The position numbers and the translations under genes are program-made. From Candidatus Bathyarchaeota archaeon (lineage in GTDB: Archaea; Thermoproteota; Bathyarchaeia; Bathyarchaeales; Bathycorpusculaceae), in assembly GCA_022865885.1 (NCBI GenBank), contig JALHSQ010000219.1, positions 1 through 64,000 of the forward strand: a stretch of DNA of 64,000 nucleotides. Direction: 5' to 3'. The notes under the pieces are model-generated. The model saw only the letters and a list, made by a program, of their open reading frames with translations. It ran no database searches and was not told the origin of the DNA. Positions 54,976 to 63,620 of this stretch are shown in pieces; the stretch's first letter is position 1, and each line of letters starts with the position of its first letter.

Positions 54976-55052
54976 GGGCCGGTAGTCTAGCTCGGTAGGA
55001 CATCTGCTTGACGTGCAGAAGGTCGCCGGTTCAAGTCCGGTCCGGCCCACCA
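54976..55052 (+). tRNA. tRNA-Val(GAC), integration target
   Basis: Acceptor GGGCCGG/CCGGCCC, D-arm GTCT/GGAC, anticodon stem TCTGC/GCAGA with loop TTGACGT (anticodon GAC), T-arm GCCGG TTCAAGT CCGGT, discriminator A and encoded CCA. It is 77 nt and uninterrupted. Its 3' 48 bases are repeated at 62071-62118, marking it as the attachment site of the element that follows. The antisense reading of its 3' half (GPDLNRRPSARQA) forms part of the integrase frame. Confidence 0.95.
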
Positions 55053-55226
55053 CACACCAACATTACCATTGTTATCACCGTTGTTCACTGAATTGCACTG
55101 TGAGAATTGTGTTAATAGGTGTTTCAAGTGGTTTTCGAAGGTTTTACTCAGATTGAAGCCAAGATTGCGCGTCTTTTCAACTAAGTCCTTGTCTATATAC
55201 AACACAACATTTCTTTTCTGAGTCAT
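54987..55226 (-). pseudogene. Integrase N-terminal fragment (IntN) at attL
   Basis: 79 residues: MTQKRNVVLYIDKDLVEKTR and NLGFNLSKTFENHLKHLLTQ form a ribbon-helix-helix-like domain, followed by a linker and the antisense tRNA peptide WWAGPDLNRRPSARQADVL, then a stop inside the tRNA gene. In SSV-type integration the int gene is split at att; this is the N-terminal half left beside the tRNA. The homologous sequence at 62119-62271 is diverged (NFNKTFENHLKQLLIQL), so the two are not copies from one event. Confidence 0.8.
55005..55052 (+). repeat. attL: 3' half of tRNA-Val, 48 bp
   Basis: This 48-bp stretch from the anticodon loop to CCA is identical to 62071-62118. Sequence identity stops abruptly on both sides, as expected of a recombination core at the 3' half of a tRNA gene. 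Confidence 0.92.
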
Positions 55227-55370
55227 TGCCTTTGCACCCGGGCAGAGGCGATGGGACTTTCTATGTTATATGTTTGGTGACTGTTGTTCTCTTGGAATGT
55301 GTGATTTGGGGTGAAGTCTTATCCCAAACCCAGAGACGTGGACCAGGCAGGAACAGCATAACCGGTTCAG

Positions 55371-55382
55371 AGAGCGCGCTCT
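55371..55382. repeat. AGAGCGCGCTCT palindrome
   Basis: A 12-bp perfect palindrome with a GCGCGC core, just beyond the LamG stop codon; possibly also a terminator stem. Confidence 0.5.
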
Positions 55383-55386
55383 CATT

Positions 55387-56391
55387 CTATGTCAGTAGTT
55401 CTTTGAGCAGATCAACGATTGTCTCTATAGTATCTATTATGTCTGTTAGTTCATGGGTTGCCCAAGACTGTTTCTTGTCACCGTTCAGTTTTGGAGTTAT
55501 GTCCTTCTCCAGTTTGTTGATGGCTTCTGCGTAGTTGCCCTCATTAATCATTTCGATCACTTCGTCAATTTTGTTTAGAAGAGCTGTCTTCCGATTTGCT
55601 GCAGGTTTCTTTAGATCAACACCGTTCTCGGACAAGGCACTTATTTCACCTTTGAGATCCAAGGCCGCTGTCAATGCCGCAAATCTTGCTTCAATCTCCT
55701 CAACCGTCAGGGCTCTGTTCCAGAAATGTACCTCGTCAATAAGGCCGTCAAACAAGCCTCCCCCACTCAAACCAGCGCCGATTCTGGGACCCAAATCCAA
55801 GGGTACATAATCAACGCTCAGCGACAGTAAGCCTCCAGTGAATTCCCCATCTATGAACATCTTGATTTGCACGGTTTCCGCGTCTATCCTATCATAGGTT
55901 ACAGCGCAGTGGTGCCAAGAATCTGGCGACACTGAATCAACCAGAAAAGTAACCGAAGAGATTCCGAGACCAATACTGAAACCCAGCTGGCCGTCTTTGA
56001 TGATTAGGGCGTATCCTTCGTTATCATCAGATTTCGTCCATATGTTCATTGTACCAATGGCGCCGTGCGGATAAATCCATGCTTCTATCGTGAAATCATA
56101 GATATCAAAGAAGTGCCCGCCAGAAACATCGATATAATCATCTACGCCGTCGAAGTCCAAGGCGTAACCAAACATTCCCTCAACCCAGCTCTCAGGCCCC
56201 ATATTCACTAGAGCTCCGTCATTGCCGTATGCAGTGCTGTCAAAGGCAATCGTGCCTTCTCCCTCATCGAAATGCCACACTCCAATGAGGCCGCTTGAGG
56301 GCGAAGCGGCTGCCATTTCTATAAATGGCGTACTCAATATGCTTGTCATGAAGAAAGCCAGCGCCAGAGTTGTGATCATATTTCTTCTCAT
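55387..56391 (-). CDS. Secreted LamG-domain protein
   Basis: 334 residues. Signal peptide (ITTLALAFFMTSILSTPFIE, cut near AAASPSSG). LamG/concanavalin-like domain ~35-235: GVWHFDEGEGTIAFDSTAYG, LDFDGVDDYIDVSGG, FTIEAWIYPHG and SWHHCAVTYDR, the classical pattern. C-terminal ~95 residues are helical (IDEVIEMINEGNYAEAINKL, IIDTIETIVDLLKELL), a FIVAR-like or stalk segment. It likely binds sugars or proteins at the cell surface. The minus-strand promoter region holds repeat copy 1. Confidence 0.87.
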   Translation of the reverse strand: MRRNMITTLALAFFMTSILSTPFIEMAAASPSSGLIGVWHFDEGEGTIAFDSTAYGNDGALVNMGPESWVEGMFGYALDFDGVDDYIDVSGGHFFDIYDFTIEAWIYPHGAIGTMNIWTKSDDNEGYALIIKDGQLGFSIGLGISSVTFLVDSVSPDSWHHCAVTYDRIDAETVQIKMFIDGEFTGGLLSLSVDYVPLDLGPRIGAGLSGGGLFDGLIDEVHFWNRALTVEEIEARFAALTAALDLKGEISALSENGVDLKKPAANRKTALLNKIDEVIEMINEGNYAEAINKLEKDITPKLNGDKKQSWATHELTDIIDTIETIVDLLKELLT

Positions 56392-56574
56392 TCTCTACAC
56401 CAAGCCCATTTAAGCTAAGATTCTCCCTATCTACTATCCTATTAACTGTTTTACTAAAACTTTACTCCCAAACCCAAACATAAGTACGTACGTTTCTTTC
56501 TACATTCTCAGCTGCGAACGTGTCTAAAACCCGCACGCGCTAGAATTCAAATAGCGTGCACTTCCTGCACACAT

Positions 56575-56765
56575 GGTCTATCTCCTCACAATCTCCTAGT
56601 TCTTCAAAACCTCCCCATAACCGAACAACAACACAACAGCATCATTGTTCAGTCTATCACATTTTCAGGTAACGTCTAGGTTTTCTACTTTTCTAGATTC
56701 CAAACGGAGCAAAAGATAGAATTTCTAATACTCTTGCTTTTTTAGAAATGGAAATTGGAAAATTT
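56575..56765. repeat. Dispersed intergenic repeat, copy 1
   Basis: Begins near CCTAGTTCTTCAAAACCTC (56597) and ends with the core TTTAGAAATGGAAATTGGAA (56741-56760). It shares both ends and the spacer AGAATTTCTAATA with copy 2 at 57.97-58.18 kb. AT-rich, non-coding. Confidence 0.6.
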
Positions 56766-56842
56766 GAAGAGTGACAAAGGGCAAAGTTCTTAGTCATGTG
56801 TCCGTTGATTGAATCCTTTCTGGCACAGTAGACTTAGCTTAG

Positions 56843-57070
56843 CTATTCAGAGGCAAGTTTGTTCACCAATCTCCTCACCAATGGTATGACCAGCAGGCTT
56901 GTCGGCAAACCCACTGCAAATCCTATTACCCAGCCACCTAAGAACCTCTGCAGGAATCCAGGGGTCCAGCCTGTCATTATCATGTTCATAGTGAAGGTCA
57001 TTGTGGAATCCATAGCTAATGTCATGAATAATGCCGTCAACAATGTAGAATACCTACGGTTTACTTTCAA
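56843..57070 (-). CDS. DUF2798-like small membrane protein
   Basis: 75 residues with two membrane helices: LLTALFMTLAMDSTMTFTMN and VIGFAVGLPTSLLVIPLVRR, linked by TGWTPGFLQRFLGGW. This is the DUF2798 pattern (membrane helix, TPGF, W, P-rich second helix). The function is unknown. In the tRNA-Val element. Confidence 0.72.
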   Translation of the reverse strand: MKVNRRYSTLLTALFMTLAMDSTMTFTMNMIMTGWTPGFLQRFLGGWVIGFAVGLPTSLLVIPLVRRLVNKLASE

Positions 57071-57348
57071 AGCAGCAACTATCCTGCCCAGAAATAAAGC
57101 AATAGTGCTTAATTTGGTTATTCACATCCGAGTGGTTGACCAAATAGCGCGCTCTTAATCAACGATCATCGGTTTCTTGCTACGTAGTCAAGTAGATTGC
57201 AACGAATGGAATGTTCTGACCATACTCATTGTTTCCTTTTCTTCCACCCAGTGCAGCGCGCGCCAGCTATCTTTTCGATAACTCTTAAAGTGAAAGTTAG
57301 ATAAGAAAAAATGAAAAGAAGAATTGATGTGCGCGCTGCATTGTCTTT

Positions 57349-57837
57349 TTACGCACTTCTATCGTAATGTGCTAGATACCTTTTCCATATTAACAATGTC
57401 AGATAGCTAGCAACAACTGCGTTAAGAACACCTATGACGAGAATAGCTAGATACAGGGCGGGTAGCATTGGCATCAATCCTAACAACGTGGAAAGATACA
57501 TTGACGAAAGACCAACTAGTGTCGTTCCGATGATTAGTGAAGCTGTCAGTCTTGAACTTTGCACACGGTTTTGCTTCACTCTGAACGCTTGGTAGAGTCC
57601 ATCGATTACTAGTCCATAGAACACGGAGAAAATCAAACTGAATGGGAAGTATGACGTCCTCAATATGCTCAAGAGGATACCATTGACTAGAGAGGTGTAT
57701 GTTCCTCCATACCTTATCATCAACGAGCCTAAGGAAAATGTGAGAGCTTGAAAAGCCAAAAAGATTTTGTCAAATGGAGTAGGTAGAAAGCCAGTTGACA
57801 CAAACGTTATAGTGCCTAGTAAAATGGTGGCAGCCAA
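57349..57837 (-). CDS. Membrane protein of unknown function
   Basis: 162 residues, about five membrane helices (IFLAFQALTFSLGSLMIRYG, LIFSVFYGLVIDGLYQAF, LPALYLAILVIGVLNAVVAS). The layout resembles small ECF-transporter S-type or permease-like proteins, with no diagnostic motif. The frame may start upstream of the shown codon. Two GCGCGC motifs lie downstream (57255, 57331). Confidence 0.6.
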   Translation of the reverse strand: MAATILLGTITFVSTGFLPTPFDKIFLAFQALTFSLGSLMIRYGGTYTSLVNGILLSILRTSYFPFSLIFSVFYGLVIDGLYQAFRVKQNRVQSSRLTASLIIGTTLVGLSSMYLSTLLGLMPMLPALYLAILVIGVLNAVVASYLTLLIWKRYLAHYDRSA

Positions 57838-57964
57838 CTTTTTGCTGGTTGTGAATCTCTCAAGACTCCTCGAGCTACTTGCTTAGCTTCCTTCTTCTTT
57901 AAGGCTTTTGTCAGAAGAAAGAGCCAGAAGATGACGATCTCTCAGCGAGCTCTTCGAGCTCACG

Positions 57965-58185
57965 ACTGCCTATCTCTCTGAAGCCTCCTAGTTCTTTCAA
58001 ACCTCTCTATTACGATATCGCTATTCAACCACTAATGCACTTCAAGTATTCATCGATAACACTTCACAAATCAAGACAACCCAGATTAGTTTCTAAATTC
58101 TAAATTTCTAAGCGAATGAAAGAGTAGAATTTCTAATATTTTTTCTTATTTAGAATTAGAAATTGGAAAATTCCAAATTTATGCA
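57965..58185. repeat. Dispersed intergenic repeat, copy 2
   Basis: Begins near CCTCCTAGTTCTTTCAAACC (57983) and carries a perfect 10-bp inverted repeat, AATTTCTAAT (58128-58137) with ATTAGAAATT (58155-58164), followed by GGAAAATTCC. It lies between two divergent genes, so it may act as a regulatory or hairpin element. Confidence 0.65.
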
Positions 58186-58280
58186 AAACACTAATTACTG
58201 ATAGGTCCTGTGCCTATTTTCTGCCGCCCGAGTCGAAAAGCTGAAATTCTGATTGGCTCTAATAGCTGTTGGTGAATCTT

Positions 58281-58571
58281 GTGCCCTACTACATCTTGCT
58301 GTCCAGCCTGACCGACGAAGGATGGAAAACAATCAAGGAAAAGCCAGAAAGGATCAAGGAAGTCAACAAGGAACTTCAAGGTTACGGTGTGCGAGTCATT
58401 AGCCAATATGCTGTTTTAGGTCCATACGACTTCGTGAACATCGTGGAAGCCCCTAACAACGAAACCGTAGCTAAGGTATCCATTGAGCTTGGCTCAAGGG
58501 GAACAATCAAAATACTGAGCATGGCAGCTATTCCCATAGACGAATTCATAAACTCAATCAAGAAAAGTTAG
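58281..58571 (+). CDS. GYD-domain protein
   Basis: 96 residues from GTG 58281, giving VPYYILLSSLTDEGWKTIKE, the usual family start; the frame extends four codons upstream. GYD proteins (PF08734) are named for the motif seen here as LGPYDFVNIVEAPNNETV. They are small ferredoxin-like dimers of unknown function. Coding is on the plus strand, unlike most genes of the element. Confidence 0.87.
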   Translation: MPYYILLSSLTDEGWKTIKEKPERIKEVNKELQGYGVRVISQYAVLGPYDFVNIVEAPNNETVAKVSIELGSRGTIKILSMAAIPIDEFINSIKKS

Positions 58572-58611
58572 AATCTTCAAACCCCTACTCTTTTTATGCT
58601 CCAAACTAGCT

Positions 58612-58690
58612 TCTCAACCGAATTCCAAGATTTTTTCTTGTTTAGAAAATAGAAATTGGAAAATCAATGGATTTTTCGAGTGTAAATACA
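58612..58690. repeat. Dispersed intergenic repeat, copy 3 (short)
   Basis: GATTTTTTCTTGTTTAGAAA then ATAGAAATTGGAAAATC (core 58641-58664). It shares the core and the downstream ACTGACAGGTCC with copy 2, but lacks the upstream part. Confidence 0.6.
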
Positions 58691-58752
58691 CGATACTGAC
58701 AGGTCCAGAGGTTATTTAGACCGAGGTAAACAGAAGCATTGCAGAACTAACT

Positions 58753-58777
58753 ACGCACCCCTTTGAGGGGTGTGCGT
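58753..58777. repeat. Strong GC-rich hairpin
   Basis: ACGCACCCCT, loop TTG, AGGGGTGTGCGT: ten base pairs with a 2-nt bulge. It stands alone between GYD and the PLD nuclease gene ends (convergent), so a bidirectional terminator is likely, though no T-run follows. Confidence 0.5.
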
Positions 58778-58943
58778 GAATTCCCAGTTATAGATTCTGG
58801 GGGCACACGCCACAGCGCATGCGCTTGATTTTGAAATACTGCTTGGGCTTTAATCAAATTTGTGAATGCTGAATTCACATTCGAAGGAAATCGAGTGTAG
58901 CCAAACCTTGCAGATAAGTGTGGAGGCTATGGACACTGAAGTT

Positions 58944-59486
58944 CTAGGGAGTTGCACTATTCCAAATCTTTTGAAACTCGTTTTCGTAAACAGCAGCTAT
59001 GTTGTCGCTGGTGATCACCACTAGATTCTCATTGTTTTCATTCTCAGCGTTTGAGGACCAATTGAAACTGCCTGTCAGCACAACCTTGCCATCGACTATC
59101 ATGACTTTATCATGCATGTAGCCAGACCCTGTGTCACTGCGAACGTCAATGCCTGCATTCTTCAGATTTTGATATTCGCTGCCACTGCCAGCGATATTGT
59201 CGTGTTCAAAAACTATTCCTATTGAGATGTTCCTGTTGTAAGCGTCAATCAAAGCATTTCTTACCGAGTCCAATGTGAAACTATATGTCAAGACGTGAAT
59301 TGAGGAGTTAGCTCTGTTTATCCAAGAGACCACTTGGTTTTCGCAACCGCCATTAGGAGAGAAATTTACGCTGGAGATAGTGGAATCAGTTTTTTCAACT
59401 TGCGTTCTAGAGAAAGCTGAAGCACCAACATAGACGCCCAACAGAAACACGATTACGAACACAACGAGTTTTGTCTTCCAACTCAT
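58944..59486 (-). CDS. Secreted/anchored PLD-like nuclease
   Basis: 180 residues from ATG 59486 (the frame is open 26 codons further). N-terminal membrane anchor (MSWKTKLVVFVIVFLLGVYV). One PLD domain: WINRANSSIHVLTYSFTLDS and YMHDKVMIVDGKVVLTGSFN (H-x-K-x4-D) with SNAENENNENLVVI. This is like the endonuclease Nuc of Salmonella, which dimerises to make the active site. It may degrade extracellular or incoming DNA. Different subfamily from the PLD protein at 11.1 kb. Confidence 0.88.
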   Translation of the reverse strand: MSWKTKLVVFVIVFLLGVYVGASAFSRTQVEKTDSTISSVNFSPNGGCENQVVSWINRANSSIHVLTYSFTLDSVRNALIDAYNRNISIGIVFEHDNIAGSGSEYQNLKNAGIDVRSDTGSGYMHDKVMIVDGKVVLTGSFNWSSNAENENNENLVVITSDNIAAVYENEFQKIWNSATP

Positions 59487-59655
59487 GTTCAAATCTTCAC
59501 CGATTATCTTCCTTCGCGCAATACAGTATTTAGCCTTGAGCTCATCGCGCGCTAGCATACCCAAAACACGGAATCTCTGGGGTTGTTCCTTAGTTGGAAT
59601 TGGAAACTTGGATTCATTTTTTTGTAAATACTAAATACGTAGAGGTCGGCTGGTT

Positions 59656-59880
59656 ATGTACACCGGGGTAATGAGGAAATTGAGTGAATGCCCAAACCTT
59701 CAATCTAACCTGAAGAACTGTTCTTGCACGTATTCATGTGATTTGAAAGGTAGATGCTGTGAATGTTTGAGAAATCATAGAGCTAACAATGAACTTCCAG
59801 CATGTTACTTTCCACCCGAGGCAGAGAAAACCTATGATAGATCAATCGGAAAATTCTTGGCTATGCACAAACGCGGCTGA
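59656..59880 (+). CDS. Cys-rich DUF6485-like protein
   Basis: 74 residues with the pattern CPNLQSNLKNCSCTYSCDL, GRCCECLRNHRANNELPACY: eight Cys with ordered spacing, as in the DUF6485 family, probably metal-binding. The function is unknown. A TTTTTTTGTAAATAC stretch lies before the ATG. Plus strand, alone. Confidence 0.8.
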   Translation: MYTGVMRKLSECPNLQSNLKNCSCTYSCDLKGRCCECLRNHRANNELPACYFPPEAEKTYDRSIGKFLAMHKRG

Positions 59881-59984
59881 AGTTTCCTTATCACTCAAGC
59901 TTCGCACTTGACTTCGTCAAAGTTGACGAATTCCGTCTACTTGCCAACATCACTACGATACACAAACCCTCTAGCAAGCGCATT

Positions 59985-60716
59985 TCAGTCTATCTTGTAG
60001 ACTTTCATTGATTCATCCTGATACACCAAGGTGAACCCTGTGTCTCTGTTGTCCAGAAGCCTGCTAAGCATTGTCTGTTTTCCAGCGTCATTAAACAGTT
60101 GAGTGGAATTCTCAAGTTTCCAATAGCTCGCTGGATCCAATCCAGCCACCTTGAACATCCACCATACTTTGCCGACCGGTGGGCCGTCATCCTTGTACAC
60201 GACGACGTATGTTGCGCCATATTTCTCCATAATCTGCCGCGTTTCAGTGCCATTGCTTGTGGTGAGAGCCTTTGCCACATCAACAAGCTTCTCATTTGGG
60301 TCAAACTCTTTGATCGCGCTCGGATCAGTCCGTGCTATTTGCACCATCTCAATCCATTCATGGGATACATTTCGCCCTGTCACTTTTCTCTCAGCGTATC
60401 CCTTGATCGCATGGCCGTAATCCCACCAGCACAGAAAAGTGGCATTCTCAGGAGTGCTACCATTTATCCAATCCAAACCTGTTCTCATCTCTGACTCAAA
60501 GTAGTGTTCAGAGTGATTTCCAGTTTCATCAGTGTACTCTATTTGAGCCGACCCATCTTTGAAGAAACTGAGCGTAGCGTTGTACCTGCCACCCACATGT
60601 TCAGTACTTGTTGGCAATTCCTTACTCTTCTGTGTAAGGTTATAGTAAGAAACAGCTCCAATTACAACTGCAGCAACCACAATTATCGCAATGACTGCGA
60701 CTATTCGTTTGTTCAT
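59985..60716 (-). CDS. Detached AglB/STT3-like domain protein
   Basis: 243 residues from ATG 60716 (MNKRIVAVIAIIVVAAVVIG, one membrane anchor); the frame opens 19 codons earlier. Residues ~95-105 give FLCWWDYGHAIKGYAERKVT, which contains WWDYG, the catalytic-site motif of archaeal oligosaccharyltransferase. It is followed by VDVAKALTTSNGTETRQIME and YGATYVVVYKDD, as in the C-terminal globular domain of AglB. The 11-13 membrane helices of a full enzyme are missing, so it cannot transfer glycans alone. It may be a regulatory or accessory form. Confidence 0.75.
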   Translation of the reverse strand: MNKRIVAVIAIIVVAAVVIGAVSYYNLTQKSKELPTSTEHVGGRYNATLSFFKDGSAQIEYTDETGNHSEHYFESEMRTGLDWINGSTPENATFLCWWDYGHAIKGYAERKVTGRNVSHEWIEMVQIARTDPSAIKEFDPNEKLVDVAKALTTSNGTETRQIMEKYGATYVVVYKDDGPPVGKVWWMFKVAGLDPASYWKLENSTQLFNDAGKQTMLSRLLDNRDTGFTLVYQDESMKVYKID

Positions 60717-60776
60717 CCTGCCACGACCAAGCAACGGAATATACGTGGCCAAGCGATATAAAGAGATTATCACTTG

Positions 60777-60962
60777 TCAATCTTCCAAAGAACTGTTTTC
60801 ATGTTTCTGTATCACCCAAGCTTCACCTTCAACCTCCCTGAATTCACTGCACGTTTCAAACCTGCCAATCTCATTACACGTAGCAAACCTTCTACAGTTC
60901 AAGCATGCTTCAACGCGTTCACGCTTCAACTTGCGTTCAAGTTCTTCTTTATTCATAATCAT
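60777..60962 (-). CDS. Small Cys-containing protein
   Basis: 61 residues, ATG start (a second Met follows). Charged N-terminus (NKEELERKLKRERVE) and CLNCRRFATCNEIGRFETC, four Cys suited to a metal site. It precedes the AglB-like gene on the same strand by 60 bases to its likely start and may be co-transcribed. No family recognised. Confidence 0.5.
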   Translation of the reverse strand: MIMNKEELERKLKRERVEACLNCRRFATCNEIGRFETCSEFREVEGEAWVIQKHENSSLED

Positions 60963-61359
60963 CGATTTTCAATGATTGACCATCAGACTGAGTACACTAA
61001 AATCTTCATACATCCACTTCGGAGATTCATCAATTGAATGGTGGTCTATCAAATCGCAGGTTTTGAAAGTCGCGTGTTTCCGATAATCATTGCCTCTCTG
61101 AGCGTGCGCGTAATGATCTCGTCGCCTGATTCATTGTTCGCTGTAAGCGCGCGCTGTTCTCGTTGGTCGTTGGCCTCCGACTTTCCAATTTTTTTGCTAT
61201 ATATATATTAAATGAAAAAGGGAGAAAAAAAGGGGTTTTCTTGTCCTTGTGCGTGCGCGCGCTTCAAACAGCGAAGCGGAACCTTGCAAAGATCCTGACA
61301 GCTACAACGATGTCACTCGCACAATAGCACAAGCACACTAACAACGAACAACAAAAACA
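60963..61359. other. Non-coding stretch at integrase 3' end
   Basis: No protein-like frame. It holds two GCGCGC palindromes (61146-61155, 61254-61263), an alternating AT run (61198-61210, TATATATATATTA) and a purine-rich A/G tract after it. It lies where the missing end of the integrase would have been coded, so it may be a deletion junction. Confidence 0.45.
61146..61155. repeat. GCGCGC palindrome
   Basis: Perfect AGCGCGCGCT, with a second GCGCGCGC at 61254 in the same gap. Confidence 0.55.
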
Positions 61360-62271
61360 TCAAACACAGAACTTCGATGAAAGCATTTCAGAGCAGAACC
61401 ATTGTCTCAACTTCTGTGGAGTAATGTCAAAACCTGTCTCTTCTCTAGCGTGTCTCCACAGCTCGATCACTTCTTGCCTCTGCATTGGGAAGAGTCTCTC
61501 ACTTCTTGATTGCCTCTTTGTCCTCAGATAGTCATCGAGTGCTTGTTCAGCTTCTTCATTATAGAAGCTTACCCATGACTTCTTTGTCTCGCCCCTGTGA
61601 CTATCAGGTGTAATCATTCTCTTCTCAAAGTCTATGTCTTCGGGTTTGAGTGAGAGGATCTCGTCTCTTCTCAAGCCTGTTGTTGCATAAAGCATGAACA
61701 GTGCCTTCTCTTTCTTTGTCTGAAGGTGTTTGTAGAATTGTTGGAGCTGTTCTTTGCTGAGTATCTGTTTTGGCTTGAACACTTGATGTGGGAACTTGAA
61801 GCTTGAGACCGTTTCTGGTGCTTTGCGGAAGTCTCTGAAGAACACTTTCATGGCCATGAGAATATTCTTGTATTGTGCTGAGCTGACTTTCAGGTTCTTC
61901 AAGTATTGGCGAACATCATCGGCGGTTGTTGATTCAACTGGTTTAGGCAATGCATTCAGGAATTTCTTGATGTAGTAGGTGTGCTCGTATGCTGTCTTGT
62001 CTGAGCGTCTCAAATCAACCTTCAAGAATTCTCTGAATCTTGTTAGCAATTCTATTGTAGGTAACCCAGGTGCTTGACGTGCAGAAGGTCGCCGGTTCAA
62101 GTCCGGTCCGGCCCACCATAAACCTTGAATATCGCTCTTTCCGTTGTTGTTCAATGAATTGGCGCTTGATAATTGTATTAACAACTGTTTCAAGTGGTTT
62201 TCGAAGGTTTTATTGAAATTGCAGACAAGATTACGCGCCTTTCCGGCCAGTTCCTTGTCTGAGTATAGCAT
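61360..62271 (-). pseudogene. Chimeric SSV-type integrase, C-terminally truncated
   Basis: 303 residues. N-terminal RHH-like part (NFNKTFENHLKQLLIQL), the att-encoded peptide WWAGPDLNRRPSARQAP, a core-binding domain (~85-165) and the catalytic domain with ATTGLRRDEILSLKPEDID (first Arg) and GETKKSWVSFY (Lys). Box II is ITPQKLRQWFCSEML, then SSKFCV and stop. The usual final GH motif and nucleophilic Tyr are absent, about 60 residues short, so it should not recombine. An in-frame TAA upstream of the first Met shows that the old N-terminal start is also damaged. Confidence 0.82.
62071..62118 (+). repeat. attR: copy of tRNA-Val 3' half
   Basis: Identical 48 bases to 55005-55052. No upstream tRNA half is present, so this copy cannot make a tRNA. 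It lies inside the integrase reading frame on the opposite strand. Confidence 0.92.
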
Positions 62272-62378
62272 GGCATTTCTTTGTTATTCGTTTGCGTTTG
62301 CCACGGATAGCATGCGAGGGCAAGTTCAATGCTATAAGCTTGGTCCTAAGTCAGAAGAGATGACCAAAGTGCAGGGTT

Positions 62379-63620
62379 CTACGATGACTTGGTTGGATCT
62401 TTTGCGAGTAGATAGAAGACTATTGCGGCGACAATGCCTATAGCTCCAAGAACACTTCCGAGACCTTCATAGTCAAGGTAGAGTAGTGCTAGTCCTCCTG
62501 ACATAGTTCCAAGGGCTGAACCAATGTTGATGACTGCAGTGTCTATCGACATCATTGTACCTCTGAGTCTTGGAACCTGTTCAAGAGTCAGACTGTTGGC
62601 TGATGAAGCCACCATGCCGAAAAACCAGCTGGCAGTCAACATTAAGACTAATGAAAGCCAGAGATTGGGTGTGAAAACGTATGCTACAGTGAATATTCCC
62701 GACAACAGAGCAGTAAGAACCGTTGAAGTTTTTCTTCCAAATCTATTCACAAGTAGGCCGCTAGTTAAGCTACCCAAAACATAGGACAAAGCTCCTCCCA
62801 ACAGTATGAGTGACGCCAGATCCGTAGGTATTAAGAATCTCTGTCTAAAGAATGATGTTGCATAGAGCACGATTGCAACAAAGGCCGCAGAACGAAGGAT
62901 GTCACCAATCAAACAAGCAACAGCAGATCTATTCAAGAGAACATCTTTGAAGTTCAGAAGAGTTTTCGTGTCCGACGAGGTTTGGCTGTTCTTTGAGGCG
63001 GATGGAAGACCAAGAAAAGCCATCAACAGACTTGTGAACAAAACCGGTAAGACAAACCATAGAAGTGGAAAACGCCAACCTTCGAATCCTGAAATCAGCG
63101 CAATGATTGGTGCTCCTATGACGTAGACTAATGCCCCGCCGGCAACGATCCAACCTATTGCGTTCGCTCGTTTCTCCAAGGGGAAATGCTCTCCAACTAG
63201 GGTAAATGCCATAGGATTAACCATTGCATATCCTGCTCCACTCAGCGAAAAGAACACAAGCAGAACTCTGAAATCCAAGGCTAAGAAACAACCCAAAGCA
63301 GAAATTGCCATCAGCAGCACACCTGTAAGAAGCAGTGACTTATGCTTGAATCTGACACTTAATACACCAGTCAACAATGCAAAAATGAACGCGGCAACAG
63401 AGTATGCTGTGTTTATTTGTCCTGTAACGCCGACCGATGTATTGAATGTGTTGCCTATGTCAATCAGAAGCAAAGCTGCTAAGACCGTTATCGGACCAGT
63501 CGCGAAGCTAGATACAACTAATGACGACAAAAACAGCCTTCTGTAGACGACCCTTTCGCTTGAATTCGAGTTGGCTCTCATACCACATGCTCCCCTTTCA
63601 CACTTGTCGTTCTTCAACAC
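62379..63620 (-). CDS. MFS transporter
   Basis: 413 residues, 12 membrane helices; the first ~13 residues may not belong (internal Met at MRANSNSSERVVY). MFS features: AFIFALLTGVLSVRFKHKSL (loop 2-3, R-x-x-R/K-like motif), GLLVNRFGRKTSTVLTALLS (second copy, D/N-R-x-G-R-K) and the symmetrical halves separated by a cytoplasmic loop (ASKNSQTSSDTKTLLNFKDV). It is likely a drug or metabolite H+ antiporter; the substrate is unknown. It lies to the right of the tRNA-Val element. Confidence 0.9.
   Translation of the reverse strand: MLKNDKCERGACGMRANSNSSERVVYRRLFLSSLVVSSFATGPITVLAALLLIDIGNTFNTSVGVTGQINTAYSVAAFIFALLTGVLSVRFKHKSLLLTGVLLMAISALGCFLALDFRVLLVFFSLSGAGYAMVNPMAFTLVGEHFPLEKRANAIGWIVAGGALVYVIGAPIIALISGFEGWRFPLLWFVLPVLFTSLLMAFLGLPSASKNSQTSSDTKTLLNFKDVLLNRSAVACLIGDILRSAAFVAIVLYATSFFRQRFLIPTDLASLILLGGALSYVLGSLTSGLLVNRFGRKTSTVLTALLSGIFTVAYVFTPNLWLSLVLMLTASWFFGMVASSANSLTLEQVPRLRGTMMSIDTAVINIGSALGTMSGGLALLYLDYEGLGSVLGAIGIVAAIVFYLLAKDPTKSS

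Follow-up and report, generated by a model that had tools for sequence, protein, structure and literature searches.

An integrated element between two copies of a tRNA-Val core

The DNA analysed here, referred to as the window, is the first 64 kb of a 77.5-kb contig from a member of the Bathyarchaeia (genome G000), whose nearest named relatives are Candidatus Bathyarchaeota assemblies. Its tRNA-Val locus carries the following features.

54976-55052, plus strand: tRNA-Val (GAC), the integration target (ARAGORN)
55005-55052, plus strand: att core (48 bp), tRNA copy, identical to 62071-62118
55053-55226, minus strand: IntN1, start codon intact (Pfam CcdA PF07362, E 2.8e-6; aligned with 26 relatives)
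55227-55280, minus strand: IntN1 promoter, CACCAAACATATAACA, BRE/TATA-like (alignment of upstream DNA)
55387-61359: element interior, with a LamG-fold secreted protein, the next four genes, and further genes without an assignment (Pfam, PHROGs)
58269-58571, plus strand: GYD protein (Pfam)
58944-59564, minus strand: PLD-like nuclease (Pfam)
59656-59880, plus strand: DUF6485 protein (Pfam)
60777-60962, minus strand: 61-aa CxxC protein (73% over 37 aa to a protein in the G042 element)
61360-62070, minus strand: IntC, SAM-like and catalytic domains (Pfam), truncated before the catalytic tyrosine
62071-62118, plus strand: second copy of the att core, which encodes the tRNA-derived linker of the fused ORF
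62119-62292, minus strand: IntN2, an older, decayed IntN with its start codon lost and a 1-bp deletion (frameshift)
62293-62346, minus strand: IntN2 promoter remnant, GACCAAGCTTATAGCA, altered but recognisable (alignment of upstream DNA)
62379-63620: MFS gene, right flank of IntN2

The att cores at 55005-55052 and 62071-62118 are identical at 48/48 positions and correspond to the 3' half of tRNA-Val. To the right of each lies an IntN on the minus strand that reads into the tRNA sequence, and the longest direct repeat of the region (54994-55216 and 62060-62282) shows 77% identity over 223 nt. A sequence-only reading of the window had placed an IntN beside tRNA-Val and had noted that IntC reads through the 48-bp att into a second, diverged IntN. 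Both observations were borne out: the tRNA gene runs into IntN1, and a single in-frame ORF of 303 aa (62271-61360, minus strand) encodes IntN2, then the tRNA-encoded linker WWAGPDLNRRPSARQ, and then IntC. Neither a further att copy nor another IntC was found on the 77.5-kb contig.

The att core lies within both integrase ORFs and equals the tRNA 3' half, as in SSV-type (type I, or "suicidal") integrases such as those of SSV1/SSV2 and the pTN3/pT26-2 plasmids, whose att core is inside the integrase gene (PMC8371274). In such systems integration splits the gene, so that Int(N) remains beside the tRNA and Int(C) lies at the opposite end (here IntN1 and IntC, respectively), and the protein includes a stretch translated from tRNA sequence. 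Unlike in these systems, however, the window IntN is a ribbon-helix-helix (CcdA-like) domain and the host is a member of the Bathyarchaeia; moreover, the window IntC is fused to a second IntN, whereas an SSV-type IntC abuts plain host DNA.

IntN segments and their upstream regions

Together with the linker, IntN1 forms an ORF of its own (55226-54987, minus strand), and it matches the ribbon-helix-helix family PF07362 (CcdA) at 28.0 bits against a Pfam cut-off of 22.4. Twenty-seven IntN sequences of the class align without gaps over 50 residues. A low-confidence structure model of IntN alone contains helices at residues 13-22 and 26-48, with the strand not resolved in the monomer, and a sequence search returned no solved structural relative. 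The upstream sequence CACCAAACTTATAACA is conserved at nearly all IntN copies and persists as an altered remnant at IntN2. In some copies a perfect inverted repeat precedes the start codon, e.g., GCATTCGC-CCGGGT-GCGAATGC at IntN_a of G024. Inverted repeats between the IntN promoter and the start codon were only weakly enriched over shuffles, and although they might suggest an autoregulatory operator for the ribbon-helix-helix domain, we do not claim one. The source genome also carries a third IntN (L040 153-479, on G000 contig 20), which has lost its tRNA-encoded end and is closest to IntN1 (81% DNA).

A fused ORF that is defective at both ends

The fused ORF starts at an internal ATG of IntN2 (62271) and matches PF13495 (9e-10) and PF00589 (2.5e-15). 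Its IntC part covers positions 1-311 of the 342 in the model and stops after "QWFCSEML", the terminal sequence being QWFCSEMLSSKFCV; the tyrosine-bearing end was looked for nearby and was absent. The tyrosine recombinase domain is therefore present, but its nucleophilic tyrosine is missing, and judged from its sequence the window integrase is a degraded relative rather than a working enzyme. IntN1, att, and IntC are in frame when joined and would constitute the native gene of an excised circle. Since IntC lacks its tyrosine-bearing part, this gene and the fused ORF would both be inactive as they stand, and the fused gene, having neither a native start nor a catalytic tyrosine, is predicted to be no longer functional.

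Among relatives, the catalytic tyrosine is retained in G024 and G042, and the ORFs of G085 and G114 are full length. A structure model of the intact relative in G024 gives very low confidence to the tRNA-encoded stretch (within residues 44-74), which sits between the two IntN helices and a well-predicted recombinase, as expected for what would be a flexible linker. No full-length close relative was found in viral contigs, phage records, or plasmid records, and thus no free circular form of this integrase was seen.

The same layout in other Bathyarchaeia

We observed the order IntN_a ... IntC-att-IntN_b at four other loci, located at tRNA-Val (twice), tRNA-Ala, and a tRNA-Gln-type target.

G024 locus: fused ORF intact; two ends on different contigs
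G042 locus: IntN_b frameshifted, IntC intact; two ends on different contigs
G085 locus: tRNA-Gln-type linker, fused ORF intact; single contig
G114 locus: tRNA-Ala, fused ORF intact, 10 kb between copies; single contig

In G114, G024, and G042, IntN_a and IntN_b have diverged by ~12-29%, and both are recognisable. The left flank of the window is syntenic with G024, and no synteny of its right flank was found with G024, G042, or G012.

Empty and singly occupied states were seen at two analogous loci, in genera other than that of the window, as the sequence-only reading had suggested looking for. G115, which belongs to the genus of G114, has the same tRNA-Ala and upstream gene with a VapC gene 12 bases downstream, and its site is thus empty. 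That VapC gene lies beyond IntN_b in G114, and the ~2.3 kb of additional DNA separating the two is most readily interpreted as the remains of an older element. G073, from the genus of G085, has one IntN relic only; its flanks meet at 2233/2237 of L144 and are 20.8 kb apart in G085, where the insertion contains IntN_a...IntC-att-IntN_b. The right flank in G085 keeps a third IntN promoter fragment, which suggests three layers of integration at this site.

The two IntNs of G085 (L047 8680-8952 and L160 2572-2843) are identical over ~110 bp next to att and clearly diverged further upstream, a mosaic that suggests conversion or crossover beyond the core, inside IntN. The tRNA-Gln-type target looks decayed in both G073 (L144 1850-2020) and G085 (L160 2460-2600), though the site was re-used, and ARAGORN predicted no tRNA at either target.

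Close kinship of the two IntNs

Solitary IntN relics that lack an IntC in their vicinity were found across the class, at genes for tRNA-Val(GAC), Val(TAC), Gln, Pro, and Leu. Most of the IntC matches in 257 class genomes lack an upstream IntN, so that the fused layout is occasional and not built in. Under parsimony the target tRNA has to change 8 times along the IntN tree, and a single clade of tRNA-Val(GAC) IntNs is rejected (p-AU 5e-5); IntN is therefore not tied to one target. G101 carries closely related IntN relics (84% DNA) at tRNA-Val and tRNA-Pro (L158 3953-4351 and L138 1876-2397), which suggests that one IntN lineage served two targets in this genome.

In the 34-row IntN tree, IntN1 and IntN2 are sisters (95/63) within a small clade that includes one more IntN from the source genome. 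This argues for reinvasion by one element lineage and for a join between close kin, not between unrelated integrases. The proposal that IntN2 came from a clearly different integrase hence found no support, and that of a new IntC joined to an old IntN in the present ORF holds by position. Quartet tests of the IntC topology on 150 nt of IntN, too short a segment to show IntN/IntC discordance, gave p-AU values of 0.29 for the tRNA-side IntNs and 0.049 for the fused IntNs. On the 34-row tree, AU tests rejected a G000+G024 pairing for either IntN; since the intervening relics have lost their IntC, this rejection is no proof of swapping. Natural domain swapping, as the sequence-only reading had it, finds no support as a source of a working enzyme in the window, where the ORF is defective at both ends, but is plausible for the intact fused ORFs of G024, G085, and G114. 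At these intact loci, expression of the fused gene also appears plausible, given the conservation of the upstream sequence at nearly all IntN copies.

A decayed IntN2 beside a pristine att

We compared the two IntNs at the 90 sites at which the three nearest IntN relatives agree. Private changes at these conserved sites number 14 in IntN2 and 2 in IntN1. Those of IntN2 are distributed 5/5/4 over the codon positions, whereas the relatives differ mostly at third positions, and the IntN2 pattern is pseudogene-like. Correspondingly, the terminal branch in the IntN tree measures 0.36 for IntN2 and 0.075 for IntN1. The att copy adjoining IntN2, in contrast, shows 0/48 changes. Between 7 and 17 would be expected had this copy been outside a tRNA for as long as IntN2 has decayed, and the probability of zero changes is ~6e-4 if the rate is taken as 14/90, or ~3e-8 if it is taken from the branch length in the tree (0.36). 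As IntN2 has decayed while the adjoining att is unchanged, the att copy was apparently made recently beside an old relic. Before the second integration, the DNA now at 62071-62118 would have been the tRNA gene itself and thereby protected. Unless gene conversion between the tRNA and the second att took place, which could also have kept them identical, this age contrast speaks for successive integration rather than an old tandem duplication.

Probable successive integrations at one tRNA gene

We conclude that the region very probably arose when related SSV-type elements integrated at least twice, one after another, at a single tRNA-Val gene. The central claim of the sequence-only reading, that the element entered a site where an IntN relic already lay next to the tRNA, is supported by the order IntN1...IntC-att-IntN2 with identical 48-bp cores, by the decay of IntN2 beside a pristine att, and by the empty and singly occupied sites seen in the genera of two analogous loci.

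In the order of events that we infer for the source genome, an older type I ("suicidal") element would have left a solitary IntN2 with its promoter, and perhaps some right-hand DNA, beside the tRNA, the remainder of the element being lost together with its IntC and outer att. Decay of IntN2 would have followed, with selection still maintaining the tRNA 3' half next to it. A later, related circle with an IntN1-attP-IntC gene would have recombined at the 48-bp tRNA 3' half, setting IntN1 next to the rebuilt tRNA and joining IntC in frame to IntN2 via the displaced old tRNA 3' half. The frame would be preserved, as the tRNA core is read in one and the same frame by related integrases, and the relic promoter would drive the fused gene. 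Apart from this promoter, no remnant of the older element was identified to the right of IntN2.

The sister relationship of IntN1 and IntN2 would also agree with a tandem (dimeric) integration in which the second copy of a single element was later deleted except for its IntN, and archaea are known to carry tandem arrays of integrated elements (PMC6563490, PMC8371274). We nevertheless regard this course of events as unlikely. Tandem copies start out identical, so that att should have aged with IntN2, and yet att is unchanged and IntN1 intact next to a much decayed IntN2. A complete array needs three att copies and two IntCs, but the 77.5-kb contig has no third att and no second IntC. The divergence of ~12-29% between the still recognisable IntNs of G114, G024, and G042 also speaks against it. 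It is very improbable that the present element has IntN2-att-IntC as its complete native integrase gene, with IntN1 on the tRNA side as an unrelated relic, even though fused ORFs are complete in G024, G085, and G114 and assignment is not trivial, the G073 relic being 91% identical to the tRNA-side IntN of G085 and 95% to the fused one. Recombination at the tRNA puts the element's own IntN by the tRNA, which fits direct att repeats that have IntN1 on the tRNA side and IntC at the opposite end; furthermore, it is IntN2 that is decayed in the window and IntN1 that is intact. An assembly artefact at the 48-bp repeat might be suspected in a fragmented, 7.6%-contaminated assembly, but is hardly credible: four other genomes share the order, in two cases on a single contig, the left flank is syntenic with G024, and the repeat is shorter than usual sequencing reads.

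Relation to proposed chimeric integrases

Successive integration at one tRNA recalls the tandem arrays that re-use a single attachment site (PMC6563490), but the window has one element plus an older IntN relic and two att copies, not three. Chimeric suicidal integrases have been proposed for the pT26-2 family (Badel et al. 2020, summarised in PMC8371274). There, as here, the histories of Int(N), att, and Int(C) are separable, and chimeric genes are proposed there as a source of new integrases. The model as summarised requires homologous recombination, or inversion, between separate elements at different loci, whereas at the loci described here site-specific reinvasion of one tRNA alone suffices to make the join directly, the frame-keeping tRNA core joining a new catalytic half to the resident N-terminal half. 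No account of chimeras formed directly, through reinvasion of a tRNA that carries a relic, was found in the literature searched, which lay outside subscription journals.

The persistence of elements with self-splitting integrases and the reshuffling of their halves have been described as partly understood. A tentative idea, which we consider possible rather than probable, is that the solitary IntN relics of Bathyarchaeia might act as docking adapters: by keeping promoter, start codon, ribbon-helix-helix domain, and frame, they would allow an incoming integrase to be rebuilt as a complete chimeric gene that could be expressed when integrated and excise the element. If true, this would provide a general route to new IntN/IntC pairs without homologous recombination, as well as an escape from the suicidal dead end. 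The intact fused genes at G024, G085, and G114 make excision by the fused integrase a testable question.

Element interior and dispersed repeats

No replication or virion module was recognised in the interior (55387-61359) with Pfam and PHROGs, and the element was consequently not classified as a fusellovirus (SSV) provirus. Matches of the LamG protein to virion proteins probably reflect a common carbohydrate-binding fold. AT-rich dispersed repeats of 37-83 bp lie both inside and outside the element (at window positions 56728, 58137, 58629, and 63700, and at 58681 and 59623), and a 48-bp piece of them matches the IntN region of G012 at 92%.
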